This document shows positions 34,629 through 63,905 of a DNA stretch of 64,000 nt, piece by piece. The position numbers were made by a program, and so were the translations under genes. This DNA comes from Terebella lapidaria (lineage: Eukaryota > Annelida > Polychaeta > Terebellida > Terebellidae). Each line of letters begins with the position of its first letter. Position 1 is the first letter of the stretch. The DNA lies in NCBI GenBank assembly GCA_949152475.1, contig OX424561.1, positions 43,676,802 to 43,740,801 on the forward strand, written 5' to 3'. The notes beneath the pieces were generated by a model. That model was not told the DNA's origin. It saw only the letters and a list, made by a program, of their open reading frames with translations, and did no database searches.

Positions 34629-34637
34629 AGTCCGGCG

Positions 34638-38238: not shown

Positions 38239-38400
38239 ATGTCAGAGTCAAGTGACGGGGAAAGTACGGAAGAGAAGGTGCCTCCGGACAGTGATCGCGA
38301 GGTCCTGTCCGGAGATGAGTCCCTTGAGAGCGATAACTCGCTTTCGGGATGAACCGGCTCTGAGGATGATGGCCGTGAGGCCGTCTCCGGGAGCCAACAC

Positions 38401-43916: not shown

Positions 43917-44100
43917 TAGTTTACTCTGTAGGTCCAGGGGTCGTCCCCCATTCTTCCAAAATGCACCCTTAAGGTCTCAGTCTTCTGCGCCATGACTGTC
44001 TGGTGTCAGCATCTTGCTTCCTTCCGGTTCCTGCATGCGATGCCTTCATCGTGTTTCCCAGTTTTGGGCGCGGGCAGAGCATGTTGGGGATCAACATTGT

Positions 44101-44110
44101 AAGAAGGGGG
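44101..44110 (+). promoter_or_regulatory. Gypsy polypurine tract
   Basis: AAGAAGGGGG directly before TAA and the 3' LTR start at 44114. Purine tracts at this place prime plus-strand DNA synthesis in LTR elements. Confidence 0.65.
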
Positions 44111-44113
44111 TAA

Positions 44114-44827
44114 TGTGGCGATTTTGCCCATAGATCGCGGCAGGAGTCTTTGCAAAACACTAACCAGTTTTACAGTCTATTTTTGGATGCTTCAGCTCGA
44201 AGAATGCATTGCCCCGGCAACGCTTTGTAATCCTCTTTCGCCCAGTAAACTATAACAATGGTTTGACCTAGTTTCCCTTCGTGTCTCGTGTATTGAGGTT
44301 TATATACTCTGGTACCGTTTTGATCTGTGAGTTGTCTCAGAGTTAGGCGAGAGGGACGACGGGGAGATCAGCCATGAGCTCTACGTCCTCGCACCGCGGC
44401 TAATGCCCTCGCAGGCTCTGGGGACCACTTCAGTGGGGAGCCCGGGCTGGGGTAGACCTTGATGACTCGGGGGCGCACGCCCTCTGGATCACCGGTCTTC
44501 TCCACCCGGGATGGTGCGACACAGGCTCTGGCAGACTGTCGGGCTGTCCGGGGTTCCATCCCCGAGGCGGACCGCGGCGAGCCAAGCCTCACAAGCTAAT
44601 ACCACAGTGATGATCTTGTATCTGAGTGGTGTCCGTACGTTGGGCTCGTTGGGCGAGCTGCTACCTGGTTAAAGTTCTGATGATAGAGTAATGACTGCGC
44701 CTGCAGTGACCATCGGTAAGCAGACAACCGCGAGGATCCGGGGATAGCGGGTGCGCGTCCGCGATGACCTGTGGTGAGAGGACTATCCTCGAGGATCCCA
44801 GATAGCGGACGACGTTAAAACTTTGCA
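44114..44827 (+). repeat. Gypsy 3' LTR
   Basis: 714 bp, TGTGGCGATTTTGCCC to AAAACTTTGCA, closely similar to the LTRs at 19158 and 23430 but with the complete right end. Followed by TATA (44828-44831), matching the 4-mer before the 5' LTR. Confidence 0.8.
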
Positions 44828-45370
44828 TATATGTATTATTTTTTATTTGTTTAATTAAAGCTCACATTCAAAGTGTATTGTTCATACAAACTACATGGCT
44901 GTAAACGGTAATGTCATATTGCTTTCATCAAAACGAAATTTATCATGAAAACATCAGACAGAAGTTTTTCAATGTATTTTTTGCGTGTGTAACACTTTAG
45001 TTCAGCTAGTAGACTCTTTATAACATCAGTTAATACAATATATAATATTATTATTACCAATTATAATATTGATCAATACTATTAGCGTGTTTAGAAAGTC
45101 CAACAATATACCCCGGTAGTCAATGACACTTAAGCATTATGGAAAACAGATATTTTCAATAAACCGCATTACACCACATAAATTTTCAATGAAAGATATA
45201 AGCCGATGTAATAGTTCTGACGGTCACAATTGCTCCGCTACGCAGTGCACGCCGAAGGTCCGCATACAAAACCTGAGGTGGGAAAGTTGTCTTCCTTGTA
45301 CATCAAGGAACACGTGTGCGGACATCTGGCCTGATTGCATGTACATAACTTACATTCGACGCCAGTATTA
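44828..45370. other. AT-rich flank, probably element-B sequence
   Basis: Lies between the gypsy 3' LTR and the recognisable LTR of the next gypsy element. No coding signal. It may contain the left part of the older gypsy's 5' LTR, whose start I could not place. Confidence 0.35.
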
Positions 45371-45726
45371 TTGTAGTTCACATGTATAATCTGTATCGCG
45401 CGCCATAGTGCGCTATTAGTTTTGACGGTGACTTTGGGCCATACTTGTACAATATCGAATTGTCATAAACGCTTTGTTTACAACTTCCATGACTTGTGTT
45501 CGATTGTTTATCGATACTTATCAATGATACATCAGCCTACTGGCGTGGTGGCAGCGGTTTGTTTTCCGGACTAACTTTGGCACAGTATAAGACAGTTAAC
45601 TGACTTTTTCCAACTTAATAGTGGGCTGAAAATATCCACCCGTCACACGCCTGTGAACGATAATTGATGAAAGTGTACATTGCAACGATCCGGTAGTGTC
45701 AGGACATAAACTGTGCAATTCCAACC

Positions 45727-46520
45727 ATGGCTGCCTCACAAAGAGCACCGACACAGTGGTGCCTCACGAAACACGAGTCGGTTAACTCATTTGAGAACTG
45801 GAAGCAGAATATAGTGTATTCCCTCTTACTAGATGCGAACTTTGCACCATTTTTGACTGAGGGTGCAGCATGGACGAAGAAAACTAAAACCACACACAAA
45901 CAGTATTCACTGACGACGGTCCCGATGTCGCTGAAGCCAAAAGACTAACTAAAGAACACAAAACATCTATGCTTGAGTTAATGCTGGGACAGATTTCTGC
46001 CCCAGGCCAATTTCTGTCCTATCATTTCCAGGAACACTATCGTCGCAAACTCAACTTCCATTGACAGTGTATGGCAGACCATCCGTCTGCACTACGGGTT
46101 CCAGTCCACCGGAGCCCACTTTATTGACCTGGCAGACTTCAAACTCGAGTCTGACGAACGCCCTGAAGATCTGTATCAAGGACTCTGGACTTACCCACCA
46201 TGACCAGAAGATCAGTGAGGCTGAGGAGCTTACTCCTACTTTGGAAAACTACATTGTCTTGACGTGGTTGAAGCTGATCAACCCCGAACTACCAAAACTT
46301 GTGAAACAGCGCTATGGTACAGAACTCAGATCACGCACCCTCGCATCAATAAAAACGGAAATATCACAGGCACTTGATTCACTCCTCGGTGAACTCAGGG
46401 TATCGGAAGACGTGAAATCAATGAGCTCCAAGACTTCAAGTCAGCCCAGAAACCAACTTGCCTCACTATGACGGCCACAAAAACCCCGCATCACCAAGTC
46501 GTGTCCCCTATGCAAGCAAG
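45727..46520 (+). pseudogene. Older gypsy gag remnant
   Basis: Starts [20 protein letters not shown], then [20 protein letters not shown] in an open frame to 45948. After frameshifts further gag-like pieces appear ([40 protein letters not shown]). At least four frame breaks. Confidence 0.65.
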
Positions 46521-46789
46521 CAGATCGTCCTGACAATCATTTTCTGAGTGAGTACACTTACTTGCCTGAACGTGACAGGAAGTTCGTCACTCGTGCCCGT
46601 CAGATTGCTTGCAGCCTTGATGAGGAGGACATTGATAACGAAGAAACCCAGGAGGCTTCTGAAGTTAAAGACCGTGACCCTGCCCCACCAACAGCACGCA
46701 CCACGTGTATCATTGAGGCATCGTGACCCTCCCCATCAGCATTGCGAGTCCATGTCAGACAATCACCCTACCTCGACACCTTTCATGGA

Positions 46790-47648
46790 CATCACAATGT
46801 CAGAGTTTCTCTAGATAGTGGGGCGACTGGCAACATGATTCGCGCTAGCACTGCATACAGACTCTGTGCAATTTGCTCACCAGGCTGACGGCTCGCTCCC
46901 TTCACGTGATTGGAGAAACTCGCACTGAGTTCACCAGGGACAGCCATGTCTTACAGTTTGAAGGACTTGTTATCGAGGACCTTGATGTTGAGGTATTGGC
47001 TGGTACTCCCTTCATGAAAGTCAATGACATAAGTGTCCGTCCAGCCAAACATCAGGTCATTCTCAGTGGACATGACATATACCTATATGGAGCCTCCTCG
47101 AGGACAACTAATCTCACTATTAGAAGAGCTAACATTTCGAGAGCACCCAACCAGGCGACCACCCTGTGGCCTGGGAATTCCTCGAGGTAGAGGTTCCCTC
47201 TGACACACTGACTGACTGCACACTAGCACTCGAACCTCGATTTGACACAGTGAAAGTTCGTGCTACTGCTACAGCCAACCCGTGGCCAAACCCATCTATC
47301 GTCTCCAGTGTCGCTGGCAAAGTGAGAATCCCTAACCTCTCTAGTGAACCCGTGGTCATTGAAAAGAACAGTCACCTGTACGAAGTGACCCCCCTTGATG
47401 AGTCTTACCCATCCAACACATGTGATGGTACAGTACCAGCTGTGCCTGTCGTCACTACTGAAGGCTGTCACTCAGATGGCGTCCACCTGGATAAAGATAA
47501 CACCCTTCCACGTGCAGTCAAAAGCAAGATGACCACTCTCCTTCGGGCGTATGATGACGTCTTTGATCCGAATATTAAAGGATATAATGGAGCTATGGGC
47601 TCGTTCACTGCCAAGGTTCACATGGGACCAGTTCAGCCCCCACAGTGA
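46790..47648 (+). pseudogene. Older gypsy protease region
   Basis: LDSGATGNMIRAS near 46808-46850 is the aspartic protease active site. The open piece 46873-47190 (TFMKVNDISVRPAKHQVILS-like segments) and 47166-47648 follow in shifted frames and lead toward RT. Confidence 0.6.
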
Positions 47649-48540
47649 AAGGTAAAGTACCTCAATACTCCAGAAACAAACTCGTGGAGTTACAGACGAA
47701 GTTTGATTCTGTGGAAGCAGCTGGCGTTTTCACGAAGCCTGAGGATGTTGACATTGACGTTGAGTATGTCAATCCCTCATTCCTGGTGGCTAAGCTGTCT
47801 GGTGACTTCCGTCTTGTCACAGATTTCACTGATGTCGGATGATACAGTAAACCCCAACCGTCACTTATGCCAAACGTTGAGTCAACCCTACGCCAGATTG
47901 CTCAGTGGAAGTACCTAATAGCCACAGACTTGACCCATGCATTTTACCAGATACCTCTCTCACGTGACTTTATTGAGTACTGTGGTGTCTCAACATCATC
48001 CAGAAATTGCTGCTGGGTGGCTTCTTCAGTGCCAAGCTGAAAGCTCAACAGGTTGCTTGGTTGCCTTGTGAAGTTGAGGCACTTAGCATAGCAGCAGCAA
48101 CAAAGCACTTCAGCCCATACATTGTTCAGTCAGCACATCATACCTGCATCCTCACTGACAGCAAGCCTTGTGTGCAGGCTTATGACTAACCGTGCAGGGG
48201 CGAGTTCTCAGCTAGCCCAAGAGTGTATACACTCCTCTCCACTGTCAGTCGATACCAGGTATCGATATGCCATGTCTCAGGGCTAGCAATTCTGCCATCT
48301 GATCATGCCAGCAGGAATTCTGAGCCATGCCATGAACCTAACTGTCAAATTTGCCACTTCATCCATGAGACCGATTCATCTGTTGTCCGACAAGTCAGTG
48401 TTGAAGATGTCCTTAATGGATCTGCCAAGTTACCATTGACCAGCAGGTCTGCTTGGCTCCCAATCCAGAGTGATTGTTCTAGTCTCCGACGCACACATGC
48501 TCACCTGTCTCAAGGTACAAGACCCTCGAAGAAGTTGACA
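47649..48540 (+). pseudogene. Older gypsy RT and RNase H remnant
   Basis: RT pieces: VNPSFLVAKLSGDFRLVTDF, then, after a frameshift at 47842, [20 protein letters not shown] and [16 protein letters not shown] (first catalytic Asp). The YVDD region is absent, replaced by a jump near 48005 to RNase H-like sequence ([34 protein letters not shown]). Ends at the SINE. Confidence 0.65.
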
Positions 48541-48543
48541 AAC

Positions 48544-48779
48544 CGCCTCTGTGGCCGAGTGGATGGGACCGGTGGCTCTTGAAGCAACGAAGCTCAGAGG
48601 CGGTAGGTGACGCGGGTTCGATCCCCGTCACCGGCACAAAGTAGGTATAGTTTTCATCCTGTCAACGCAAAGGTTTCTCCATTCGAATATGCTTCCCAAA
48701 TTCTAAATTGTCACCCGACGGGGGAAGGGGAAGACAGGCAGAATTGCCTATCATCATGGACCGTCGTAAAATAAATCTG

Positions 48780-48818
<39 letters not shown>

Positions 48819-48822
48819 TTAT
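48544..48822 (+). mobile_element. tRNA-derived SINE with (ATT)n tail
   Basis: The head is tRNA-like with an A box TGGCCGAGTGG (48552-48562) and B box GGTTCGATCC (48615-48624), the polymerase III promoter pair. The A box and the long gap suit a class II (Ser/Leu-type) tRNA ancestor. A ~150-bp unrelated body follows (TTGTCACCCGACGGGGGAAG), ending in AAATAAATCTG and a TTA/ATT microsatellite. It interrupts the pol remnant of the older gypsy element. No clear target duplication was found. Confidence 0.7.
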
Positions 48823-49863
48823 AATGTTCAGGATGTCAAGCGCTATTCACAAGTGGCATCGATAGCTATAGACGGGTTACTTGTCGTCTAACGACATGAT
48901 CCACTGGCACCCAGACGTGATTGCGTTATTGTCCTAAGACAAATCCTTGATGGCTTCTTGACATCCCTTCATCTGCAACTACAACACCTCTCCTGACACC
49001 AGCTGACGAAGGTGTTCCAACGGTACTTCTTCGCCCTCGACTTTGATACATCTGTCAGTAACATCAGCCGTCAATGCTCCCAATGCAGCTCACTCAAGAA
49101 GATGCCAAAGTTGCCATCCCCACAGTCTACACATGACCCTCCTCCTACAGTCAGTGTTTTGTTCGCTACTGATGTCATTCGACGGGAGCGTCAGTGTATC
49201 CTGGTTACCCGAGAATGTGTCACTAGCTTCACGTCTGCTTTCTTGATTGCCAATGAACGACATGAAGCACTCCGTGATGCTTTGCTTTCTGTTGTGTGTC
49301 CCATTTTTCCCCATTGATGGGCCACCAGTTGTTTTCAGAGCTGATGCTGCCCCTGGATTTCAAGCTCTGACTAATGATCCATTGTTACGTCATCACAACA
49401 TATCATTGGAGCTTGGCCGTCGAAAAAATCCAAACAAAAACCCCATGGCTGAAAGAGCGATACAGGAACTTGAGTTTAAGATTATCAAGCAGGACCCATC
49501 ATGTCGCTCACTCACACCTCTGACTCTTGCTCTAGCAACTGCCACACTGAACAACCAAATTCGTTCATGGGGCCTCTCCGCACGTGAAATGCTCCTCCAG
49601 CGAGATCAGTTCACCAACACCCAACTTCCCCTGTTGGATCAGGATCTCATACTCTCTCAACATCAAGCTCGAGAGCTTAATCATCCATACAGTGAAAAGA
49701 GCAAATGTCTTTCTGGCGTTACGACACAAAGTGACGTCCTTCAAATTGGTGACCTCGTCTATTTGTATCGAGACAGGAACAAGCATAAGCAGCGTGACAG
49801 ATACATCATAACATCGATTGATGGCTCCTGGTGTACAATCGAGAAATTTGCTGGGAACTCCTA
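48823..49863 (+). pseudogene. Older gypsy integrase remnant
   Basis: From 49010: VFQRYFFALDFDTSVSNISR, then QCSQCSSLKKMPK (CXXC of the HHCC domain). The core has FATDVIRRERQCILVTRECV and, after a frameshift at 49317, PVVFRADAAPGFQALTNDPL (second Asp) and NPMAERAIQELEFKI (Glu). The C-terminal part (LQIGDLVYLYRDRNKHKQRD) resembles a chromatin- or DNA-binding tail. A TAG at 49862 ends the frame; proline-rich sequence continues in pieces to about 50200. Confidence 0.65.
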
Positions 49864-50234
49864 GCGCATCAAGGGGTCCAAATGCTTCCGAGTACCACTG
49901 ACAGGCAAGTGCTTACCTCCCTCCCAGAGTGTGGCTGACCATCATGACGAGGTCCTTGACGCCGCCAGTAGCATTCTGGAGCCATTGCCTGATGGTCACC
50001 CTGGCCTAACCGGCCCTTCTGGTTTGCCATGTCCATCGGAGATACCAGAATCTCTCAACACCCGCTGAGTCCACCACTCCTGTCCCATCTGGTGCTACTA
50101 GTGACACAACAACAGCTGTCCCTGTGTCTCGTCCAAAAAGAACTGTCAGCCTGTCTTCCAGATTCCAGGACTGAATCAGTCTTGAATGCATGTGTTCGCA
50201 ATTTTCCCATCATTTCATATGTGTTTTTTTTTTT

Positions 50235-51622
50235 AGGTTACCGGACCTATGGTCCGATAACCTATTGGCATGGCGTTGCGTCCGTCGTCGTCGTCGTCGT
50301 CGTCCTTATTTTTATCTTTTTTGTTTACGGGCGAATTTTTTTGAAATTTTGCACAAAAATACTTAAAAACAATTCAAGAAGGAGGTATTTTTTAGTTTTT
50401 TGATTTTCGCATTTTTTTCAAAATGGCGGCCGTTTTCGACGAAAAATGCCTGATTTTGGCGGCCATTTTCTCAAAATCTGTTCAGTAACTTTTTTTCTTT
50501 TTGATACATAAGACTCCTCATATGTACTCCTATGATGTCAATAAATTTCGTTGCACTTGAATCGCTCGAAGTGGGCCATTTTGGCCCAAACTCGGCCCAA
50601 ATGGGACTTTCCCATGTTAAATTCTCCTATGCTTTATAATGGGACACATTATGCGTAATATCTCACTTGATATTGAGATTAGAGACTAGGAATCAATTGT
50701 GGACATATAGGAAATGATATATGCTGAATATTCTCGTGACCTTGAATTTGACCCCTGACCTCAGTTTCAAAGTCAGAGCACAAAATGGCTTATATCTCGC
50801 TTATTATCGACTCTACAGCTTAGGAATCAATTGTGGACATATAGGAAATAATATATGCTGAATATTCTCGTGACCTTGAATGACCTCAGTTTTAAGGTCA
50901 GAGCACAAAATGGCTTATATCCCGCTTATTATCGACTCTACAGCTTAGGAATCAATTGTGGACATATAGGAAATGATATATGCTGAATATTCTGATGACC
51001 TTGACATTCGACCTCATTTTCAAGGTCACAGGACAGAATGGCTAATATCTCGCTTCTTATCGACTTTACAGCTTAGCAATCAATTATGAACATATAGGAA
51101 ATGATATATGCAGATTATTGTCATGACCTTGAATTTGATCTTTGACCTCATTTTCAAGGTCACAGGACAAAATGGCTAGTTGCTCACTTATTATCGATTT
51201 TACAGCTTAGGAATCAATTGTGGACATATAGGAAATAATATATGCTGAATATTCTCGTGACCTTGAATTTGACCTCTGACCTCATTTTCAAGGTCACAGG
51301 ACAAACTGGCTCATATCTTGCTCCTCTATTAACTGTATGGCTTGGGAATCAATTGTGGACATGATATAGAAAATGATATACATTGAATATTTTGATGACC
51401 TTGAATTTGACCTTTGCCCCTTCATTTTCAAGGCCACAGCACAAAATTGCTAATATCTCTCTGATTATTGAATTTACAGCTTAGCAATCAACTGTGGACA
51501 TGATATATGCTTAATGTTATATATGCTGAATATTCTCGTGATCCTGAATTCAACAGTGACCTGGCTAACATCTAAAATATTAAACATTGTCCGGTAACCT
51601 ATCTTCGGCCCTTGGCCTAATT
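50235..51622 (-). mobile_element. HINE-like repeat in reverse orientation
   Basis: Reads on the minus strand from TTAGGCCAAGGGCCGAAGAT and AGGTTACCGGACAAT through about seven core units, the conserved 3' region, a GAC microsatellite (50281-50306 as GTC on plus) and the hairpin end GGACCATAGGTCCGGTAACC. Same family as the arrays at 9875-15650. It splits the 3' LTR of the older gypsy element. Confidence 0.7.
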
Positions 51623-51818
51623 TTCTTTCAGGAAGAAAGAAGGGTAGCTCCAGTATTTTTGTATTTTACATGTATAATCTGTATCGTGGGCCATAATGCA
51701 CTATTAGTTTTTACGGTGACCTTAGGCCATACTTGTATAATATCGAATTGTCATAAATGCTTTGTTTACAACTTCCATGACTTGTGTTCGTCGATTATCG
51801 TGTGTGGATACTTACTAA

Positions 51819-52317
51819 TGTGGCGATTTCGCCCAAAGATCGCGGCAAGTGATTCTTTCTGAATACTCTTGTTTCTGGCCTTTGTTTTGGACGCTTCTGT
51901 TCGAAGCTCGTGCGCTGCTTAACGCCCTCCAATCCTCTCGCCCAGTATGCTGTAACAATGGTCTTACGTCACTTCCCTCGTGCCTCGTGCTTCAGGGACT
52001 ATAAGTACACTGGATCCACGTTGTTCAGTGGAGTTGTCTCAGAGCTGAGTAAGGCGAGAGGTAGACGGAGGGCTCGGCCATGAGCTCTGCGTCCTCACTC
52101 AGCGGCTAAGGCCCTTGAAGGTCCTGGGGACAATTTCCATAGGGGGCCCAGGTTGGGAAGATCTTGATGACTTGGGGGTGTACTCCCTCTGGTTCACCGG
52201 TCTCCCGCCTGAGATGGTGCGACACAGACTCTGGCGGACCGTCGGGCTGTCCAGGGTTCCATCCCCCATGGCGGACCACGGGGGGATTCGGGATAGTGGA
52301 CGGCGGCAAACTTTACA
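51819..52317 (+). mobile_element. Solo LTR of the gypsy family, short form
   Basis: TGTGGCGATTTCGCCC to AAACTTTACA, 499 bp. Flanks CTAA and TTAA look like a 4-bp duplication with one change. It lacks a ~200-bp part present in the other LTRs (corresponding to about 19640-19830). Removing it rejoins the older gypsy LTR (GATACTTACTAATGATACAT). Confidence 0.75.
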
Positions 52318-52346
52318 TTAATGATACATCAGTCTACTGGCGCCAC

Positions 52347-52616
52347 TCTTGAAGACTGGCTACCTGCCCCAGCTTGGATCCTGGTTTCTCCCATGGGACC
52401 GGCGCTGCATGACCCCAGCTGGTATCGAACCGGGATCAGTCAGAAGCCAGGGTAATTTTTGCATAGAAATAAATTTCTGAATTCATTTATTATATGCTGA
52501 GCAATGGTAATTATTGTAACTCAGAAACTGGACCATGAATAGAATTTACTAGGCAATTCCGTGTTTTTTTTTCGCAAATGCTTGTGAGGACGGTGACGGC
52601 GCTACCGTACTGAATG
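52347..52616. other. Element-B flank left of the BEL insertion
   Basis: Non-coding. It ends with the subterminal motif GACGGTGACGGCGCTACCGT of element B. A B-box-like match on the minus strand near 52425 has no partner A box. Confidence 0.4.
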
Positions 52617-52621
52617 AATAC

Positions 52622-53198
52622 TGTTGTGTGTTGCACTCAAAGTCCAATAGAAGCCAATCATAGAGTAACACGCCATGAGTTTATTCGACGATAGGAATAC
52701 CACAGAATACCACAACGATGACTGTGAGGTGGTGGTGACGGTTCTCTGGAACAAACAAAGTTCCCAGAAGTCAGTTACAGTTTAATATGTACGTTAACTG
52801 TTAACAGCAAACAAACAAACCTCTTCAGAAACTGTTATTGACGAACAACAAGTCTACATTTGGACTATCAAATACACGAAAAAAAATATTTCGCCAGAAT
52901 TATGAAGGGCGCACAAGGTGACCACAGGATGCAACAGAGCTTAACTGACACTTGAACAAAATATTACCTATGGTTATTTTTATATCACACTACAAGAACT
53001 ACACAAGAAGGAAATAATACTAACCAAACATTGGCGACTCAAATTCGACACAACAGAAAATAAAGACTTGGTAACAAACTCTGAGCGTCCATCCATATGT
53101 GCCGCCTCGTGACAGATCGTGTCTTTTTGGAAATTGCGAACAGTAACATTCAATGCTTGAACTTACGCATAATTGCGAACTGCGAAAACAGCGACACA
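52622..53198 (-). repeat. BEL/Pao 3' LTR
   Basis: On plus: TGTTGTGTGTTGCACTC at the left and GCGACACA at the right. Compared with the other LTR it has 7 extra bases (TGTTGTG) at the outer end, which are needed to bring the AATAC duplication next to the element. Confidence 0.85.
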
Positions 53199-53454
53199 CC
53201 GCCCAACAATGAATTTTTACGATAAATTCATTAACATAAATCTGTAGCACCATAGCTGTGTAATACTGAGCAATTAACACACCGAGTGTGAACATACCTA
53301 GTGGAACACATAGTACCAAATTTACAATATAACCCATACTCATGAACTGAACAACATAACCTGTTACACACACTCAAGGTTGATCCATTACAATACTACA
53401 ATGGTACATGACTTACTCTATATCTTGTTCTAACAAACAAAGTTTAGTTACTGG

Positions 53455-56400
53455 TCAGACTTTGACCGAGTTGCCATGTCTTACTTCACACGAGCGTACC
53501 AGCCCATCCCGACCAATATTTACATGAGCAATACGGCCTAAAGGCCACTGACCTCGGGGTGCGTTTTCATCAACAATCAGGACAAGATCATTAACTTTAA
53601 CATTACGATGTGGAGTCTGCCATTTTGTTGTAAGTTGCAGTGTTGGGAGGTAGTCCCTCAGCCACCTTCGCCAGAACACAGTTGCGAGATATTGCACTTG
53701 GCGCCACCATCGGGCACAATACTTGTCATCTTTGTCGAAGACGCCAGCAGGCATACATGAGTTGGGTCGCAGTAACAGAAGCTTACTTGGTGTCAGCGGC
53801 TCCGGATCCCTCGAATCGTTGCTGACAGCAGTAATCGGCCGATCATTCAGAATCATCTCCACCTCGGCCATGAATGTTAACAGAGACTCATCCTTGAGAA
53901 GCTGTTCCTTGACTAACGCCTGGAGAATCTTCCTTGTCGATCTGATGAGTCTCTCCCAGACTCCTTCCATGTGGCTACCAAGAGGGGGGTTGAAGTGCCA
54001 CTCTATACCTTTCTGGAGAAGGTCTGTGTTTATCTTGGCCTGATTCCAGCTCCTGATTGCCTCATTCAGTTCTCGCTCACCGCTAGTTAGGTTTGTACCA
54101 TTGTCACTGAAGATTTTACGTGGCCGCCCTCTTCGACTGATAAATCGGCGGAAAGTTCCAAGAAACGAGTCTAGAGTGTGTGCAATTTCGATATGAACTG
54201 CACGGGTCGTGAGACATGTGAAGATACATCCATACCGCTTACACTGGCCTCTTCCGAACTTGACATACAACGGACCGAAGTAGTCAATGCCGACGCATGT
54301 AAACGGTGGCTCGTCTGGTGTAACACGTTCAACTGGGAGACCTCCCATCTTCTGCTTCATTGGAGCCTGACATCTACGCTTGCAATCGAAACATCGACTG
54401 AGGACTCGTTTCACTGCATTCCGTCCCTGGACTATCCAGTACTTGATTCTGGTCTGTGACAAGGTGTGCTGGAGCTCAGCATGTCCCACAGCTTCATGCT
54501 GTTGGCGTATGATGAGGTCAGTTACGTGGTGTCTCCCCGGCAATATAATTGGATGTTTGATTTCATACTCCATGCTTGCATTTCTCAGTCGACCTCCAAC
54601 TCTCAGTAGATTATTTTCATAGACTGGACAGAGCTTGACCAGTGGACTTGACCTTGCCACCAGACCAGCAGACTTCCGTAGCTGTACAATCTCACTTGTG
54701 TAGTTGTGCAGCTGTGCACGGCCCACAATGCTCTGGCTAGCCTCTTCCATCTCTTGGACTGTTATTGGACCTGTTTGGACAGCTACATCTTTAGCCAAAT
54801 ACTTGTGACAACAGTAGCTCTTGAATCTGTGAAGCCAGACAAATGCCTTCTGAAGCCGGTACCAACTCGAGAACTGTTGAATCACATCATCGAGTGTGGC
54901 TGATGTCTCAACACTGTAGACATGAACAACATCTCCCTTCACTTCAGTGTCATTCTCAGAGACCTCCAGAGTTGTTAACTGTTTTGGCCACAATCGCTCA
55001 TCACTCAGAAGAAAGTTTGGTCCATTCAGCCACATGCTAAGCTTCACGGCGTCATTCGCTGCAGCGCCTCTCGACGCAACATCTGCGGGATTGTGTTCGG
55101 AAGGTACATGACGCCACTGCCGACTTTCAGATGAGTCATGTATTTCACTCAGACGATTCGCCACAAACGTCTTGAATCGCCTTGACTTGTTGCGTATGTA
55201 TCCTAGAACGATAGATGAATCTGTCCAGAACACAACACTGTTTGGCCTCATGTCAAGCTCCAGTTGTACTATCTTGTGTAGTCGACATGCTAACACTGCA
55301 GCTGAGAGCTCAAGGCGGGGAACTGACATAATCTTCAAGGGTGCTAATCTCGACTTCCCCAGCAAGAAACTACATGTCATGCTTCCGTCGATATGGACAA
55401 AACGTATGTAGGCTGCAGCCCCGTATGCATACTCTGAGGCATCTGCAAAGTAATGTAGTTCGATCAGAGTTACTTCATGTTGTTTAGCTACTAGCAGGCA
55501 TCTTGGAATAGTGATCTCGCCTAGGCTCGTTAGAGAATTCAGCCAGGAGGTCCAACGTTCTTGATACTCCACCGGAATCTCGTCGTCCCATCCAAACCCT
55601 AGTTGGTACAGTCTCTGAAGTATTAGCTTCGCATCCAGCACAGCTGGAGCCACAAATCCCAGGGGGTCATATACAGAACTTGTGATGGAAAGGATGCCTC
55701 GCCTAGATTTGGGCTTCTCTTTCACCTTGACATTGAATTTGAACTTATCTGTGTTGACGTCCCATAGCACTCCTAAGGTTCGCTCAACAGAGAGTCCATC
55801 ATCTAGGTCCAGATTTACAACTGAGGGAGCCCTTTCCGAGCTTGGAATACTGTTCAAGACTTCTAAGTTGTTGCTGATCCACTTAGTAAGTCTGAATCCA
55901 CCTTTCGCTAGCAGACCCTGTAATTCTGATGCAAGTTGTATGGCTTGTGACACGTTGTTGACGGACTTCAGGCAGTCATCCACGTAGAAGTTCCGTTCTA
56001 CAGTCCGGACCGTGTCTTCACTAAACTCATCTTTGAAATCTTGGGCCGTCCTTCTCAAGCAGTAAGTAGTGCAGCTTGGACTACTAGTCACACCAAACAG
56101 ATGCACAGTCATACAATGTTCTTCGGGTTCTCGTCCTAGGTCGCCAGCAGGCCACCAAAGAAAACGTAGTGCATTACAGTCATCTTTTTGAACCCTCACT
56201 TGGTGGAACATGGCCTCAATGTCAGCCATCAGAGCGACTGGTGCTTCTCTGAACCGGATGAGGACTCCAACAAGTGAATTCATGAGGTCGGGTCCCTGTA
56301 GAAGATGATCGTTCAGTGACGTCCCTTTGAACTTGGCTGCACAGTCAAATACAACACGTACTTTATTCGGCTTGTTTGGATTCTGTACTGGGTGGTGTGG

Positions 56401-59055
56401 CAAATAGTATAGCTTGTTTGACATTTCCACATTCAGTATGTCCGTCACATCCAGTCGTCGTGCATGACCCTTCTCAATATAACCCTCGACAGTGGCTGTG
56501 TACTTCTTGTGTAACTCTTTGTCTCTTAACAGTTTCCTCTTGAGCGACCGTAAACGTGTTTCAGCAAGGCCTCGATTGTTCTCAAGCTTCACGTTATCAT
56601 CACGCCACGGTAATGCAACCTGGTACCGGCCATCGATACACTTGACTGAAGAGTTCATCTTGTCCAGTGCTTGTCGGTCTTCTTGAGACATTCCCAGTTT
56701 GGATGTCTGTGGTGTATCATTGAAGTCATTCTTCCACATCCTTTCTAACTGCTGGTGTAGCATTTCATCAGTTGACTGTTGAAAGTTGACATTTTGTGCT
56801 TGTGACATGGGCCCTATTATCATCCAACCCAGCAAGGACCGCACTGCATACGGCTCCTTGCGGCGACCACGGCGTTCTTCAAGCCGCCAGAATGCTTCAG
56901 GGGTATCACTACCAATCAACAACATGATTTCACTAGCAGTGATTTCTGGCAGGCAAATATCAGTTAAATGTGGCCACTTTCTGATGTCGTCATTATTTGG
57001 AACACTGTGCAGAGATACAGGCAACTTATCTACTGTCCACACCCGATCCAAGATCACCTTGTCTGAGCCATCTAGTGCCCAGGCAGACACGGTCACCTCG
57101 CTACCTCGTACCGGTTTTAACTGTTGGTTTACAGTAGTCATGGAGAAGTCTTTTGGTTTCCCTTGCACATTCAATGTCTCCACCAAATCTTGACAACACA
57201 AGCTAACATCAGAACCACTGTCTAGCAAGGCATAAGTGTTCACCTCATTACCATTGCTGGCTTTAACCTTGACAGGAAGTACACCAAGACACACATTACG
57301 TTGTGAACTAATATTTGTGACACCACAATGAACATTATCCGTAGTCACCATAGCAACATGAGAATCATCACCAGCGGCTCCAGCACATTCATCAGAACCA
57401 ACAACATCAGGATGCATCACAGAGTGGTGATTTTGATTACAACCTGATACAGTGCATGCATTTGGTTTACGACAATTTCTTGCACTGTGCTTGAAATTCA
57501 AACAATTCTCACACATTCTGAATCTTTTCACAACATTCTTTTTTGTGTCATAATCCAGATGTTTGAATTTGTCACAATCAACGAGCCTGTGAGGTTCCTT
57601 ACAGTGTACACATGACAATTCACGCTTTTTGAATGATGAAACATTCGGTACAGGCGATTCAGAGTTTCCTGCCTGTGTGACCAGTGTTGTGGCCTTGAAC
57701 TCGTGACCTTTGGATAATTTATTCTTGACATGTTTAACACGTGAACCTGAACCTTTAGACTCCGAACTAGCCAGATCCTGACCATACATAGTGTTTGCAA
57801 CACAAGCTCTACTGTGAACAAATTTCAACAAGTCAGAAAAGTTTGGTTCATTACCACTTTCAATGATGTGGCTAGCTTTCTCAGCCCATTTAGACCTGAT
57901 GTACATTGGCAAACGTCTCACAATACGACGCAGGTTTTCTGTGTTATTTATGTCAGCAACATACCCAAGCTGAGAGAATGTAATTTCACATTTCTCCATG
58001 TCCAACGACAGGCCCATCAAACTTTGAACACCATTAGGCCTTAACAGCGGACCATTTACAAGACTGTCAATATGTGAACGAGCAATCAAGTGAGGTTTAC
58101 CATATCGTGATTGCAATATACCCTTTGCACGAACATAACCATCTTCAGGTGACAACATCACACAATCCTCAATACATCTTTTAGCTTCACCTTCACAATA
58201 CTGTATCAGATAACTCAACCTTAGCCTGGCATCAGTTATTGTACATTCTATATTGGTTTCAAAGTTACACATAAATTTACAATAATTACACGGGTCACCC
58301 ACAAAGGCCATCAGTTCTGGCTTTGGAAGGTTGAAACCCTGTTGAATCGCACTCGTCATGGCATGGAAGGCATCCGTACTGGAAGGTGGCGTTTGCATCG
58401 CTTCGCCGAACGTGATCTGGTTCGGCCGGAGTGGCGCGATGTTCTGTCGTCGGTCTGTAGTCGCAGTCGTCGCAGGACTGTGACCCCGGTACCCACCATC
58501 CAGGGTTGTCGACTGGGGCCAGGGTGTCTGAAGCGGGGGCCTGTGAGGCACAGGCGTCTGTGTCTGGAGTGCAGGCGCAGCTGTCTGGGGTGCAGGCGTC
58601 TGCGTCTGGAGCCCAGGCGCCGTTGTCAAGGGTGCAGGCGCCTGTGTCTGGAGCCCAGACGCCGTTGTCAAGGGTGTAGTTTGTGTCTGGAGCGCAAGGG
58701 CAGTCGTCTTGGGCACAGTGGTCTGTGTCATCTCAGGGGCAGGCGGTGTGCGTGCCTGAACCTCGTCGTCATTGGACGTGGTGCGCACCTTGTCTGACTG
58801 TGCTGTAGCTTGACCGAGACTGATGTCTGGCCCTCGCCTTTCGTGCATCTCTGCTTCGTGCTGATAAAAGCTCTCCTCGAGTGTTGCCTCCTCCAGCTCC
58901 GCCACCATGTCATATTCTTCAGCACGTTGCCGCAGCTCTTGTTTCTGCCGCAGCTGTTTAAGCTTGAGTTCTGCTTTAATTTTCTTGAGCTTTGCAGCTC
59001 TAGCTCTTGATGACAAGGAAGATGATGAACTCGAGCTAGTGTGGCGACTTGTCAT
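53455..59055 (-). CDS. BEL/Pao Gag-Pol polyprotein (1866 aa)
   Basis: Replication polyprotein of the retrotransposon. Domains by approximate residue: Ser-rich start and basic coiled coil 19-75; Pro/Thr/Gln repeats 110-180; gag domain from ~245 (PELMAFVGDPCNYCKFMCNF); Cys/His knuckles ~485 (CVHCKEPHRLVDC) and ~520 (CENCLNFKHSARNC); protease ~607 (YALLDSGSDVSLC); RT ~900-1100 with VRVVFDCAAKFKGTSLND and FYVDD ~1021; RNase H ~1195 (HYFADASEYAYGAAAY); integrase with a Cys pair (SRCFDCKRR ~1545), VGIDYFGPL ~1590, FSDNGTNL ~1650 and HMEGVWERLIRS ~1698. All catalytic residues I can check are present and there is no stop, so it may still be able to move. The true N-terminus may lie in the upstream ORF 59082-59408, one frame away. 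Order and YVDD are typical for BEL/Pao. Confidence 0.92.
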   Translation of the reverse strand: MTSRHTSSSSSSSLSSRARAAKLKKIKAELKLKQLRQKQELRQRAEEYDMVAELEEATLEESFYQHEAEMHERRGPDISLGQATAQSDKVRTTSNDDEVQARTPPAPEMTQTTVPKTTALALQTQTTPLTTASGLQTQAPAPLTTAPGLQTQTPAPQTAAPALQTQTPVPHRPPLQTPWPQSTTLDGGYRGHSPATTATTDRRQNIAPLRPNQITFGEAMQTPPSSTDAFHAMTSAIQQGFNLPKPELMAFVGDPCNYCKFMCNFETNIECTITDARLRLSYLIQYCEGEAKRCIEDCVMLSPEDGYVRAKGILQSRYGKPHLIARSHIDSLVNGPLLRPNGVQSLMGLSLDMEKCEITFSQLGYVADINNTENLRRIVRRLPMYIRSKWAEKASHIIESGNEPNFSDLLKFVHSRACVANTMYGQDLASSESKGSGSRVKHVKNKLSKGHEFKATTLVTQAGNSESPVPNVSSFKKRELSCVHCKEPHRLVDCDKFKHLDYDTKKNVVKRFRMCENCLNFKHSARNCRKPNACTVSGCNQNHHSVMHPDVVGSDECAGAAGDDSHVAMVTTDNVHCGVTNISSQRNVCLGVLPVKVKASNGNEVNTYALLDSGSDVSLCCQDLVETLNVQGKPKDFSMTTVNQQLKPVRGSEVTVSAWALDGSDKVILDRVWTVDKLPVSLHSVPNNDDIRKWPHLTDICLPEITASEIMLLIGSDTPEAFWRLEERRGRRKEPYAVRSLLGWMIIGPMSQAQNVNFQQSTDEMLHQQLERMWKNDFNDTPQTSKLGMSQEDRQALDKMNSSVKCIDGRYQVALPWRDDNVKLENNRGLAETRLRSLKRKLLRDKELHKKYTATVEGYIEKGHARRLDVTDILNVEMSNKLYYLPHHPVQNPNKPNKVRVVFDCAAKFKGTSLNDHLLQGPDLMNSLVGVLIRFREAPVALMADIEAMFHQVRVQKDDCNALRFLWWPAGDLGREPEEHCMTVHLFGVTSSPSCTTYCLRRTAQDFKDEFSEDTVRTVERNFYVDDCLKSVNNVSQAIQLASELQGLLAKGGFRLTKWISNNLEVLNSIPSSERAPSVVNLDLDDGLSVERTLGVLWDVNTDKFKFNVKVKEKPKSRRGILSITSSVYDPLGFVAPAVLDAKLILQRLYQLGFGWDDEIPVEYQERWTSWLNSLTSLGEITIPRCLLVAKQHEVTLIELHYFADASEYAYGAAAYIRFVHIDGSMTCSFLLGKSRLAPLKIMSVPRLELSAAVLACRLHKIVQLELDMRPNSVVFWTDSSIVLGYIRNKSRRFKTFVANRLSEIHDSSESRQWRHVPSEHNPADVASRGAAANDAVKLSMWLNGPNFLLSDERLWPKQLTTLEVSENDTEVKGDVVHVYSVETSATLDDVIQQFSSWYRLQKAFVWLHRFKSYCCHKYLAKDVAVQTGPITVQEMEEASQSIVGRAQLHNYTSEIVQLRKSAGLVARSSPLVKLCPVYENNLLRVGGRLRNASMEYEIKHPIILPGRHHVTDLIIRQQHEAVGHAELQHTLSQTRIKYWIVQGRNAVKRVLSRCFDCKRRCQAPMKQKMGGLPVERVTPDEPPFTCVGIDYFGPLYVKFGRGQCKRYGCIFTCLTTRAVHIEIAHTLDSFLGTFRRFISRRGRPRKIFSDNGTNLTSGERELNEAIRSWNQAKINTDLLQKGIEWHFNPPLGSHMEGVWERLIRSTRKILQALVKEQLLKDESLLTFMAEVEMILNDRPITAVSNDSRDPEPLTPSKLLLLRPNSCMPAGVFDKDDKYCARWWRQVQYLATVFWRRWLRDYLPTLQLTTKWQTPHRNVKVNDLVLIVDENAPRGQWPLGRIAHVNIGRDGLVRSCEVRHGNSVKV
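58525..58725 (-). repeat. 42-bp tandem repeat within BEL gag
   Basis: Codes for about four copies of a 14-residue unit close to LQTQTPAPLTTAPG in the linker between the coiled coil and the gag domain. The frame is kept throughout, so copy number may vary between elements. Confidence 0.75.
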
Positions 59056-59081
59056 TGTGGAACTCGTGTCTGTCCGATTTC

Positions 59082-59408
59082 CTATCTCATCCCGCCTGTT
59101 TCATAGCTTTCTCGAAGCTGGCTCGCTTCAGTCTCGTTACTACAGTCCTCCACACATTCATCATGGGCTGTCGTAAACTTCCTCCACTGTCCTTTTAGGC
59201 GATCGGTGTGTTCATTAACGGCACTGTAATTGTCAAAGGACAGCAGTAGCTGCTCTATCTCTCTGTACAGGCGGTTGATGTGCCCCAAGTGTGCAGAGCG
59301 GCTGCGTCGTGACGACAAGAAGCGCTCAACCATCAGGCTCGCTTCGTTGGTCTCCGCTTGCTCCGCTGGCACATCGACACTACTCAGGGTTTTGTCATCA
59401 GTCGACAT
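59082..59408 (-). CDS. BEL gag N-terminal ORF, one frame from gag-pol
   Basis: Opens MSTDDKTLSSVDVPAEQAET 40 bp after the 5' LTR and runs 108 codons to a TAG at 59082-59084. SAHLGHINRLYREIEQLLLS and the rest are charged and helical, like the N-terminal region of BEL gag proteins. The frame overlaps the gag-pol frame by only 16 nt (59085-59100), between a TGA in the gag-pol frame and this TAG. A -1 shift in that window would fuse the two. A single-base mutation in this copy is the simpler explanation. Confidence 0.6.
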   Translation of the reverse strand: MSTDDKTLSSVDVPAEQAETNEASLMVERFLSSRRSRSAHLGHINRLYREIEQLLLSFDNYSAVNEHTDRLKGQWRKFTTAHDECVEDCSNETEASQLRESYETGGMR

Positions 59409-59447
59409 GTTCATCAATGACCATAACTTGTCACTCGAACCACAAAC

Positions 59448-60017
59448 TGTTGCACTCAAAGTCCAATAGAAGCCAATCATAGAGTAACACGCCATGAGTT
59501 TATTCGACGATAGGAATACCACAGAATACCACAACGATGACTGTGAGGTGGTGGTGACGGTTCTCTGGAACAAACAAAGTTCCCAGAAGTCAGTTACAGT
59601 TTAATATGTACGTTAACTGTTAACAGCAAATAAACAAACCTCTTCAGAAACTGTTATTGACCAACAACAAGTCTACATTTGGACTATCAAATACACGAAA
59701 AAAAATATTTCGCCAGAATTATGAAGGGCGCACAAGGTGACCACAGGATGCAACAGAGCTTAACTGACACTTGAACAAAATATTACCTATGGTTATTTTT
59801 ATATCACACTACAAGAACTACACAAGAAGGAAATAATACTAACCAAACATTGGCGACTCAAATTCGACACAACAGAAAATAAAGACTTGGTAACAAACTC
59901 TGAGCGTCCACCCATATGTGCCGCCTCGTGACAGATCGTGTCTTTTTGGAAATTGCGAACAGTAACATTCAATGCTTGAACTTACGCGTAATTGCGAACT
60001 GCGAAAACAGCGACACA
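59448..60017 (-). repeat. BEL/Pao 5' LTR
   Basis: 570 bp, TGTTGCACTC to GCGACACA on plus. Immediately inside it on the minus strand is GTTTGTGGTTCGAGTGACAA, where the primer-binding site should be (TGG at 59441-59443); I cannot name the tRNA. Confidence 0.85.
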
Positions 60018-60069
60018 AATACTGTGCCGGCGTCACTGTACTCCTCAATTACTGTGACTATACCCCGTG

Positions 60070-60800
60070 GACAATAAGCCAGATATTGGCCATTTTGTGC
60101 TCTGACCTTGGAAACGAGGACAAAGGTCAAATTCAAGGTCATGACAATGTTCAGCATGCATCATTTCTTGTGTGTTCACAATTGACTACTAAGCTGTAAA
60201 GCCGATAATAAGCGAGATATTTGCAATTTTGTGATTTGACCTTGAAAATAAGTCAAATTCGAGGTCATGAGAATATTCGGTGTATATCATTTCCTATATG
60301 TCCACAATTGATTCGACAATAAGCGAGATTTTAGCCATTTTGTGCTCTGAACTTGAAAATGAGGTCAGAGGTCGAATTCAAGGTCACGAGAATATTCAGC
60401 TTATATATCTGTTCCTATTTGTCCATAATTGATTCCCAATCTCTAATCGCAATATTAAGATATTAGGGAAAGTCCCATTTATTAGGGAAAGTCCCATTTG
60501 ACCCAAGTTTGGGCCAAAATGGCCCACTTCGAGCGATTCAAGGTCAACGAAACGTATACACGTCACAGGGGTAAATATGAAAAGTGTAATGCATCAATAA
60601 GAAAGTGTAATAAAAAGAAAGATTGTTACTGAACAGATTTTGAGAGAACGACTGTCAAATATCAAAATTGACTGTTTTTCGGTAAAAGTGGCCATCATTT
60701 TGAAATTGCGAAAATAAAAGAAAACTCTTCTTGAAATATTTTTAGGCATTTTTGTGAAAACTTTTAGAAAGATTCGATCGACCAATTTACACATTTTTAT
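60070..60800 (+). mobile_element. HINE-like repeat, right half
   Basis: Continues the copy cut at 18839: ATAAGCCAGATATTGGCCAT, then three core units with CAAGGTCA, the 3' conserved part (GGGAAAGTCCCATTT, TTACTGAACAGATTTTGAG) and loss of the microsatellite and hairpin end. More diverged than the intron-2 copies, as expected for the outermost and oldest layer of the nest. Confidence 0.6.
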
Positions 60801-61400
60801 TTCAGACATTTAGCACTCAAGTTCATCTGAGGTCAGGCTCAAATTTGTTAGTTGTTTCATATGCGACTTATATATGCTCATAATGCAAACTTTATCCGCA
60901 AGACCTCTGTAGAGGTAAACGTGGACATTGTTTTACCCCAAAACGCCTGTTTTGACCTTTCAAATTCATCGAAGGACAAATTAAGGTCACTTCACAAATC
61001 GCCATACATGACTTCCTGTCTGAATGTGCCAATATCTAAGCTCTAACTTGAAGTGTTCTATGAGCACAGCGGTGGCAATGGGTAAATTTTTTTCTCCTAG
61101 AAATTGCCCAAATAACAATGCGATTTGGATCCGAAAACATGTTTTCGCCACCAGTCAAAAATTCACAATGGCCCCCACACGGACACTGGGGATTCAAGGG
61201 CGACAATATTTATACACGTCACAAACGTATATAATCTTTTAAAACAAAAGTCTCAAAACTGATCAGACAGTTTTGGAGAAAATGGCCGCAAAAGTTTAAA
61301 ATTGAGCATTTTTCGACATTAATGGTCTCCATTTTGAGACAATAAAAAATAAAAAATACCTCCTTCTTGAATTATTCTAAGGTATATTTTCCCAAATGTT
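60801..61400 (+). repeat. Highly diverged HINE-related sequence
   Basis: Weak but ordered matches to the repeat's 3' region: GACTTCCTGTCTGAATGTGCC, GATTCAAGGGCGACAATATT, TATACACGTCACAAACGTAT, GGAGAAAATGGCCGC and AAAATACCTCCTTC. No ends recognised. Confidence 0.45.
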
Positions 61401-62103
61401 TTGACAGATGGGACCATACACGAGCAAATGCACAAAATCGTGCGCGGGTCCAGATATATGACCGGGGTAAATCTAGCATTTGGTAGAATGGCTTTTTTTT
61501 TCAATTTTCGCGATAGAAGTCTGTAGTTCGGTGGGAAATTGCTAAATTTTAAATTGTTAATATTAGCCCCGTCATTGAATTTGTGGGTCTGCACACCATT
61601 TGCTGCTTAAGGACAATTTCTAGTGAGGGGCCCACTCAGAGGGGCTAAAATGTAAATTTCCTTTGAGTTTTTTAAGACTTTCAAACATTCGTCAAAATGA
61701 CATTAGTAACACTATACTATTCAGCATCGCACAATTAGGCAATGTCGTTTTTTTTTGTTTCCCGTCAACTTTTTTTGCGACAAGTACCAGCCAGCCAGGA
61801 AAAAACAAACAAACACCGAAAAAAGACCCAGACATTTATTATAACAATAACATCATTATTCTCGAAGTAACTTATGCCAAAAATGTAAAAATAAATGGTA
61901 TTTGACCATTTGCCTAATGACTAAATACTTTATTGACTTTATTGATAAATAACGGAGTGGAAAAAAGCAAATTGGAAGCTTTTCATTATCTTTTCCGACG
62001 TTCAGTGTTTTTAGGATATCTATGCATAACTATAATCATTTTATATTGCTCGATATTGAAATTAGTTTATTTACTTGCATTCTTCCTACGGATACACGTC
62101 TAG
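61401..62103. other. Right end of MOK intron 4
   Basis: AT-rich intron DNA; no element or coding signal recognised. A TTTTTTGTTTCCCGTCA stretch near 61748 also occurs near 16270. Confidence 0.45.
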
Positions 62104-62182
62104 GTCGACGAAAATATTTGTCAGAATCCAAGTGTCAAATGCTTATGTACCAACTACTGAAGTCCATCGCGCATTTACATAG
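62104..62182 (+). CDS. MOK: MOK coding exon 5a (alternative)
   Basis: Acceptor CACGTCTAG, donor GTATGA, 79 nt. With the preceding G it encodes G-RRKYLSESKCQMLMYQLL and KSIAHLHR, the helix D to helix E segment, residues 95-121. It keeps the LSE and MYQL..S pattern expected for MOK. The acceptor's pyrimidine tract is weak. It is paired with exon 5b, which has the same length and the same phases at both ends. Confidence 0.88.
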
Positions 62183-63274
62183 GTATGACGTCACATGTTT
62201 ACATTTCGGAGTGCTGTCATATTTCGTCCTAATAAACCAGAACGTAGAACTGTAGTATTATTTCCTGAAACTTGCGCCATTTTCCGAACAAGTTGACCAA
62301 TCTAAATCACAAGAATTTATATATTTTTTTGCCACGGTGCTTCTGGATGTACAAGATATAACCGATATATATTGTACATGTATTGCCATTTCTTTGTACT
62401 TATTTCTACATCTCACAGATGACAAACATGTTCAAATATTGTTTAATCACGAGGACGATATCTAACCATGAATCAACTGTATTTACGAAATCCTCCAAAT
62501 AGTGATTTTTTTAACTGCGAGTGGATATGACGTAGGACTTCATGCCAAAAACATTCGTGTTACACTTTTTGTTTCGTTATTGGTATTGAGTATTTGGTCT
62601 TCTGATATTTGTCACGTTTGAATACATTTTAATAACTAAAATGTTAGCAATTAACAGTGATATATCGCTCCAGAGAATAACATAATGTGTGTTGAAGCAA
62701 CTGACTTCGAAAACAGGCAATATTTTGTTTAAAAACTATATTTCATATTAAACATGTTGAATAAACTGAATGTGACATACTCGCATGAAATATTATGACT
62801 ACAATGAGTCTTTTGGGAAATTTTGCTCGTTTGAACAGGCGGTTCACGGGAATTTTGAATGTAAATGCAAGAACTGTATTCATAACACGTAGATGGGAAC
62901 AAAGCCAGTGCAAGGTAGACTGACAACTATACGCATACCATGGTAAATCATCGGTTGTTATGTTATTACTACACTATATATGCAGAGCCAATTTGAGCGT
63001 TTGTTTCCATTCGGGTGTGATGAATATACTTCGATTGTTCATATACGACACTCACACGAAATGAATGGTAGAAGGGATGGAAAGACATCTCGAACAGATT
63101 GCAATCCTCAAAATCATTGTGCACATGTTTTACCATATTGTCATAGATGTGTTGCACTAAAATTTTGTTTTGAAAAATGTGCAATATTTTCGAAGACAGT
63201 TGCTTTAATCTTGTGCTCATTAATCGATAATTATTAGTCTTTTAACAAGCTAAATATTTTCTTCTCTTCTCTAG
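62183..63274. other. Intron between exons 5a and 5b
   Basis: 1092 bp, AT-rich. No third exon-5-like copy (no other CATTTACATAG plus donor) and no transposon. Short ORFs at 62729-62926 and around 63000 are unsupported. Confidence 0.5.
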
Positions 63275-63353
63275 ACAGGGACACCTATTTAGAAGAGTTT
63301 CGAGTCAAGCTTTATATGTATCACTTATGTCGTTCAATTGCTCATTTACATAG
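63275..63353 (+). CDS. MOK: MOK coding exon 5b (alternative duplicate of 5a)
   Basis: Acceptor TTCTCTTCTCTAG (strong pyrimidine tract), donor GTGAGA, 79 nt. With the preceding G it encodes D-RDTYLEEFRVKLYMYHLC and RSIAHLHR. The last residues (S-I-A-H-L-H-R) equal those of exon 5a while the first half differs. Both exons are 79 nt, so using both or neither shifts the frame; they must be mutually exclusive. The reading frame is open and both splice sites are good, so it is not an obvious dead copy. Confidence 0.85.
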
Positions 63354-63659: not shown

Positions 63660-63708
63660 AAATGGCATTTTTCACAGAGATGTCAAACCTGAAAATATTT
63701 TAGTAAAA
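63660..63708 (+). CDS. MOK: MOK coding exon 6: catalytic loop
   Basis: Acceptor CTTTTGCAG and donor GTGAGT, 49 nt. It encodes NGIFHRDVKPENILVK, residues 121-137. Asp128 of HRD is the catalytic base, and Lys130 and Asn133 are the usual ATP and metal contacts. Confidence 0.95.
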
Positions 63709-63816: not shown

Positions 63817-63905
63817 GATGAGAGGTTACTCAAACTAGCAGACTTTGGGTCCTGCCGAAGTATACACTCAAAACAACCGTATACGGAATACATATCCACG
63901 AGATG
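63817..63905 (+). CDS. MOK: MOK coding exon 7: DFG and TEY activation loop
   Basis: Acceptor TGTTTCGCAG, donor GTCAGT, 89 nt. It encodes DERLLKLADFGSCRSIHS and KQPYTEYISTR, residues 138-166, ending two bases into Trp167. The metal-binding DFG is intact, and Thr160-Glu-Tyr162 is the MAPK-like dual phosphorylation motif. The rest of the kinase lies outside the window. Confidence 0.95.

Follow-up and report, generated by a model that had tools for sequence, protein, structure and literature searches.

The window, a stretch of 64,000 nucleotides of Terebella lapidaria DNA, is part of a 43.95-Mb contig in an assembly of 761.6 Mb and 438 contigs. Most of the kinase domain of a MOK gene, exons 2–7, was located on its forward strand using tblastn and splice borders (Table 1). 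The model begins at exon 2, as no exon 1 was found, and a G contributed from upstream is assumed to complete its first codon. The HRDVKPEN, ADFGS and TEY motifs were all present in the spliced translation. The spliced kinase domains scored 229 bits (with exon 5A) and 226 bits (with exon 5B) against the Pfam Pkinase profile, both covering positions 1–263 of 263. Three protein searches listed 221 different proteins; two of the searches were large and contributed the best 120 matches each of 4,434 and 2,310. Among these best 120, the named relatives were mostly annotated as "MAPK/MAK/MRK overlapping kinase". Isoform A was 75–81% identical to the 16 non-vertebrate proteins within the best 30, over 164–169 positions. 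The gene in the window is a MOK kinase (LF4-type, RCK group). No second MOK locus or retrocopy was seen in the genome, all other matches to the MOK of the window being at most 54% identical (150 of 316 candidates scored). A spliced retrocopy, considered as a possible proof of MOK expression, was likewise not seen among the scored candidates.

Table 1. Features of the MOK locus in window coordinates, continued past the window end for the distal part of the gene
Feature	Position	Strand	Length and phase	Content
MOK exon 2	9690..9804	+		Gly-rich loop and strand with catalytic Lys, GKKGEGTFSEV...ACKKMK (tblastn, splice borders)
MOK exon 3	16525..16614	+		SLEQVNNLREVQAMRRL...
MOK exon 4	16890..16960	+	ends in phase 1 with G	hinge, CELMDMNVYEMIK
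Intron 4	16961..62103	+	about 45 kb	repeat-rich; contains a long retroelement frame on the - strand
tRNA-like stretch	48540-48640			ends GGTTCGATCCC..CACCGGCAC (by eye)
Short repeated units	50640-51600			AAGGTCA..TTCAAGGTCA (by eye)
Stretch flanking the retroelement	about 52630-53200			similar to that at about 59440-60000 (by eye)
Retroelement frame	53455-59100	-	1,881 codons without stop	LTR type by look
Stretch flanking the retroelement	about 59440-60000			similar to that at about 52630-53200 (by eye)
Short repeated units	60100-60450			AAGGTCA..TTCAAGGTCA (by eye)
Exon 5A	62104..62182	+	79 nt, phase 1 to 2	GRRKYLSESKCQMLMYQLLKSIAHLH(R), with the G donated by exon 4
Intron between 5A and 5B	62183..63274	+	1,092 nt
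Old dispersed repeat	62690..63209	+	~520 bp	about positions 508-1027 of the 5A-5B intron
Exon 5B	63275..63353	+	79 nt, phase 1 to 2	DRDTYLEEFRVKLYMYHLCRSIAHLH(R), with the G donated by exon 4
MOK exon 6	63660..63708	+		NGIFHRDVKPENILVK, catalytic loop
MOK exon 7	63817..63905	+		DERLLKLADFGSCRSIHSKQPYTEYISTR, activation loop with TEY; gene runs on past the window
MOK exon 8	64159-64251
Minisatellite	about 64.7-82.6 kb		52-bp unit	fills most of intron 8
MOK exon 9	82642-82743
MOK exon 10	83068 (start)

Exon 4 was found to end at 16960, so that intron 4 is about 45 kb long, which refines the preliminary description. The retroelement in this intron, which we take to be Bel/Pao-like, has flanks that are near-identical by eye and may therefore represent a recent insertion. 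The short repeated units lie on both sides of it, and the tRNA-like stretch may be either a gene for a tRNA or a repeat that derives from one. The intron 8 minisatellite (loci L009–L011; L010 652-9461) reached 169.7 copies in the one locus scanned, with similar matches from 64.7 to 82.5 kb. Its unit includes a 3' splice site and the first bases of exon 9 (CAG/TCTCCGGCCT.TGTTCCC, with the slash at the border), and the true exon 9 lies at the last unit. This would mean some hundreds of decoy acceptors ahead of the true one.

Between exons 4 and 6, the preliminary description had placed two exons of 79 nt with the same phases, intact splice sites and open frames, about 1.1 kb apart, and all of these features, including the coordinates, were confirmed. 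The acceptors read ctag/G for 5A and ctctag/A for 5B, and the donors /GTATGA and /GTGAGA, respectively. The residue 95 reported to change from Gly to Asp agrees with human MOK numbering. The two exons shared 40 of 79 nucleotides and 14 of 27 residues, including the split last Arg. The differences at codon positions 1, 2 and 3 numbered 11, 10 and 18 (26 codons each). Such an excess at third positions is expected under restrained protein change and would fit an old pair under constraint. The Nei–Gojobori comparison of the two exons, made within one genome, gave a dN of 0.47 and a saturated dS. With the window exons used as tblastn queries against 123 kb of joined context, only 5A and 5B were found below E 0.05 among the matches listed, and no additional exon-5-like copy appeared among them in intron 4.

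On a rough matrix, the donor of 5A scored 6.45 and that of 5B 9.09, the donors of exons 3 and 7 reaching 7.19 and 6.37. Pyrimidines occupied 16 of the 20 positions ahead of the 5B acceptor and 13 of 20 ahead of the 5A acceptor. Judging by donors and pyrimidine tracts, 5B looks like the stronger exon and 5A like the one which would need help.

The reading frame provides a reason for the use of one exon at a time. As anticipated in the preliminary description, taking both exons or neither broke the frame, and a TAG was found in each case. With both exons included, 5B ended in the stop with its three final bases, 138 nt upstream of the exon 7/8 junction at which exon 7 ends; with neither, the stop fell in exon 6, 94 nt upstream of the same junction. 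According to the usual rule of nonsense-mediated decay, both mis-spliced products should be destroyed. Since the stops lie upstream of later exon junctions, the frame alone would be able to enforce single-exon use. Each MOK mRNA would then take 5A or 5B, and if decay operates as the frame predicts, kinase would be made only from mRNAs with a single version of exon 5.

Pairing sequences enforcing exclusivity, for which the preliminary description had proposed a search, were not found in the intron pieces analysed. For six pairs of intron pieces of about 300 nt, 7 to 49 of 60 mononucleotide shuffles paired equally strongly, a weak test made in one species with the middle of the intron outside the pieces. 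The intron sequence around 5A and 5B shared nothing beyond chance, the sole flank alignment below E 0.1 covering the 22 nt with which the exon ends. Steric hindrance by a too-short intron was ruled out as the exclusion mechanism by the 1,092 nt separating the exons, or about 570 nt without the inserted repeat. The incompatibility of U12-type splice sites was also considered and rejected, both donors looking ordinary by eye. The repeat inserted in the 5A–5B intron had at least 40 further matches in the genome, 69–78% identical (40 of 2,045 candidates scored).

From each of the 221 proteins the exon-5 segment was extracted, and 148 unique segments of relatives entered the profile ranking described below. 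A region search with the B exon matched one protein. In the oyster Magallana gigas, a UniRef model (P0082) carried an A-type segment, then intron-like residues and then a B-type segment beginning with Asp, as in 5B, and another protein of this species, labelled isoform X5 by NCBI (P0156), had the B segment alone. In the snail Biomphalaria glabrata, one model (P0124) contained A followed directly by a shortened B with positions 1–3 absent, and another (P0139) contained A only. In this comparison of proteins, the tandem order of A before B was thus seen in two molluscs, in a single gene model each. If real, P0124 could reflect the inclusion of both exons in frame by way of an inner acceptor, and this would argue against strict exclusivity in Biomphalaria.

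B-like segments, similar across several bivalves, were found in Mya, Mactra, Ruditapes and Potamilus, and an A-like segment in Dreissena, which nests among Mya, Mactra and Ruditapes in a MOK tree built without exon 5. Due to the use of a protein database with one representative per 90% cluster, such a mixture of A-like and B-like representatives fits alternative isoforms without proving them. Two further proteins (P0191 and P0198, with the source label lgn, read as Logan) had a B-like exon with Asp first. They are probably spliced, the longest contig measuring 1,875 bases for P0191 (516 amino acids) and 1,470 bases for P0198 (460 amino acids). Asp at the first residue of the B-type exon was common to oyster, Lottia and these two proteins. 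None of the vertebrate MOK proteins compared showed a duplicated exon 5, although a rodent (P0085) and a bat (P0103) model carried other insertions at this place. In the MOK isoform X2 of the ctenophore Bolinopsis (P0193), some 33 residues are inserted where exons 4 and 5 meet; the insertion begins with ERRSYMND, which resembles the start of an exon 5, and is possibly another alternative exon.

The claim of a mutually exclusive pair made in the preliminary description stands in full as regards a tandem duplicated exon in MOK. Its second part, exclusivity, is strongly implied by the frame and stop logic, the oyster and snail models and the oyster isoform with B alone. This worm is thus probably able to produce a pair of kinases distinguished by a single patch of their surface.

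The use of both exons has to be weighed against three other explanations. Only one exon may be in use, the other being a decaying copy that is open by luck. Against the family profile, 5A scored 63.2 bits, with 9 of 148 unique segments lower, and 5B 44.6 bits, with 1 of 148 lower, the median relative reaching 93.0 and the ERK2 outside control -10.3; P0124 was left out of this ranking, since the start of its B segment is missing. This strong departure of 5B from the profile would fit decay, and at exon position 17 a Gln found in 148 of 148 unique segments of relatives is replaced in 5B by His, which could be specialisation or decay. If 5A were the unused exon instead, its weaker donor and the few T ahead of its acceptor would be accounted for. 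However, both copies have kept intact borders and frames in spite of 39 of 79 nucleotides differing, with an excess at third positions, the 5A donor resembles those of exons 3 and 7, and low-scoring exon-5 segments also sit in annotated proteins of Lottia and Physella. We therefore regard a decaying copy as improbable.

The position of the two stops ahead of the exon 7/8 junction also suits a second exon serving mainly as an off switch, in which double inclusion or skipping would lead to nonsense-mediated decay and the balance would set the MOK dose. A pure off switch would need no intact kinase-like reading of both copies, and the annotated oyster isoform with B alone does not agree with it, which makes this explanation very improbable. 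An artefact of assembly, either a misplaced haplotype or a collapsed repeat, can practically be dismissed: the exons do sit in a repeat-rich region, but no evidence was found in its favour. The divergence of the pair, flanks that align below E 0.1 solely over those 22 nt at the exon end, and the same exon order in two other animals all speak against it.

In the reading of 5A and 5B as alternatives, both isoforms have the ATP site, the catalytic loop and the TEY activation loop in common; what distinguishes them is the end of helix D, the D–E loop and one face of helix E. The location "below the substrate cleft" given in the preliminary description was sharpened by an ungapped alignment to ERK2 anchored on the HRD motif, in which the segment forms the end of helix D, the D–E loop and helix E and includes part of the docking-groove lining of ERK2. 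Exon positions 10, 13, 17 and 20 aligned with ERK2 His123, Tyr126, Gln130 and Arg133. In an ERK2 co-structure, His123 contacts the docking peptide and Tyr126, Gln130 and Arg133 belong to the upper hydrophobic pocket (PMC11982978). All four of these positions differed between 5A and 5B (hypergeometric 0.041), and two of four differed in oyster and two of four in snail; at position 10, the change from 5A to 5B is merely Lys to Arg. In each of the three species with a pair, positions 9, 10, 13 and 19 distinguished A from B (1.2 such positions expected; p 0.011 with a uniform-position null that ignores unequal variability, and with snail B lacking positions 1–3). Positions 9 and 13 also vary among other relatives.

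Because the segment is part of the ERK2 docking groove by alignment, the swap of 5A and 5B would likely alter docking partners or an activator rather than catalysis. The choice of exon would change the groove face of MOK and so lead it to other docking partners or another activator. MOK acts to reduce the length of cilia in mouse renal cells (PMC4171540), as the Tetrahymena orthologue does for locomotory cilia (PMC6682161). As LF4/MOK kinases shorten cilia in these organisms, the exon switch may tune MOK for different ciliated cell types, to which the change of partner would adapt it. Taken together, we consider it probable that exon 5 of this annelid MOK gene was duplicated in tandem long ago and that the two copies have been retained for mutually exclusive use; a swap of the groove face would alter docking partners or an activator and may tune a ciliary kinase.

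The age of the pair relative to the annelid–mollusc split was approached with exon-5 trees, which rest on 27 residues and on searches that were not fully converged (the free tree scored -860.2 in an earlier run and -858.3 in the later one). The set of 12 mollusc B-like exons used in them was picked, like a class of 15 B-like proteins, partly by eye on residues then counted; this makes the count for that class circular, and no conclusion is based on it. Relative to the free best tree of -858.3, 5A and 5B as sisters scored -864.2 (p-AU 0.36; -862.8 in the earlier run), 5B with the 12 mollusc exons -868.3 (p-AU 0.32), 5A with them -866.0 (p-AU 0.43) and both exons with them -874.7 (p-AU 0.089). 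Joining 5B to P0191/P0198 gave -860.6 (p-AU 0.58) and joining 5A to them -869.4 (p-AU 0.065). Forcing the 12 mollusc exons into one clade cost about 9 log units. In the MOK tree without exon 5, the window gene was placed outside the molluscs, near Capitella and Lingula, weakly (support 0.52).

Whether the annelid and mollusc pairs arose independently, one exon having been duplicated more than once, appears to us an evenly balanced matter. The sisterhood of 5A and 5B was not rejected, the mollusc B-like clade was costly, and the fit to the mollusc B set was a little better for 5A than for 5B, a result unfavourable to a common class of B exons. The two exons also end alike in S-I-A-H-L-H, in which Ala (A23) occurs in 2 and Leu (L25) in 4 of the 148 unique segments. 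This rare common ending points to gene conversion or to a duplication that took place after annelids and molluscs had split; long separate histories would account for it less well. For mrp-1, PMC7434440 cites separate origins of its mutually exclusive exons in helminths, annelids and molluscs. Against independent duplication stand the A-then-B order recurring in oyster and snail and the first-residue Asp in oyster, Lottia and P0191/P0198. Neither 5B with the mollusc B set nor 5B with P0191/P0198 was rejected. Gene conversion would make 5A and 5B look like sisters, and 27 residues give little signal. That the pair is ancient throughout lophotrochozoans, re-tooling the MOK docking groove into cilium-type-specific kinases while gene conversion keeps the helix E core alike and the groove face stays different, is a broader possibility that we hold to be rather unlikely.

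Tandem exons of which only one is used at a time form a well-known class among enzymes, kinases included. The alternative exons 6a/6b of JNK1 and JNK2 (MAPK8/MAPK9) lie in subdomains IX–X. Like the MOK pair, they are alternative exons of a CMGC kinase, and they are listed as changing substrate binding (PMC8699841), but they belong to a different kinase and to a different stretch of the kinase domain from MOK exon 5. MOK has no mention in that review. FYN likewise has mutually exclusive tandem homologous kinase exons, and its isoforms FynB and FynT differ in binding and tissue distribution; however, FYN is a tyrosine kinase and its swap concerns the SH2–kinase linker and the N-terminal part of the kinase domain, where the ATP site lies, rather than helices D–E (PMC9741552). 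Also comparable are coq-2, in which homologous exons are swapped one for one in annelids and molluscs (Capitella, Crassostrea virginica, Biomphalaria glabrata), and mrp-1, with equal-length mutually exclusive exons of repeated origin (PMC7434440). These are other proteins, and the use of the coq-2 exons is backed by RNA-seq and an exon deletion in C. elegans; the question of one or several origins is left open in the coq-2 paper (PMC7434440). The mouse and Tetrahymena MOK/LF4 kinases belong to the same kinase family and regulate cilium length (PMC4171540, PMC6682161). No account of duplicated exons in MOK was found in a literature search covering titles and the beginnings of abstracts, with most subscription papers outside it.

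How one animal sets different cilium lengths by cell is an open question, with MOK/LF4 among the known length regulators. A kinase in two versions differing in one 27-residue cassette would make it possible to test cleanly if the partners of MOK depend on that surface. It would also add a ciliary kinase to those whose catalytic domain contains a switched cassette and, after coq-2 and mrp-1, another case for asking why annelids and molluscs hold such pairs at the same place.

Elsewhere in the assembly, many small contigs (e.g. C49, C110, C235, C363 and C417) showed kinase matches in which TAA and TAG occurred in frame but TGA was much rarer. C49 was among the small contigs matching MOK (54%), and C417 carried a second cox1-like gene with internal TGA. 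These contigs look like those of a ciliate whose stop codons have been reassigned, either one associated with the worm or a contaminant of the sample. The contig C438 (15,973 bases) is a mitochondrial genome whose gene order marks the source as an annelid, with nad4, nad1, nad3, nad2, cox1, cox2, cox3, (nad6), cob, atp6 and nad5 on one strand. Eight of the genes were identified with Pfam, cox1 by a COX1 match, nad2 by reading of the frame and nad6 by position, with no Pfam match; cox3 was recognised from a 50-residue piece with a score of 22.8 against a cut-off of 23.8. The genes nad4l and atp8 and the RNA genes were not found on this contig. The order of the protein genes equals that tabulated for Travisia in PMC8924214, where it is given as the common mitochondrial order among Errantia and Sedentaria.
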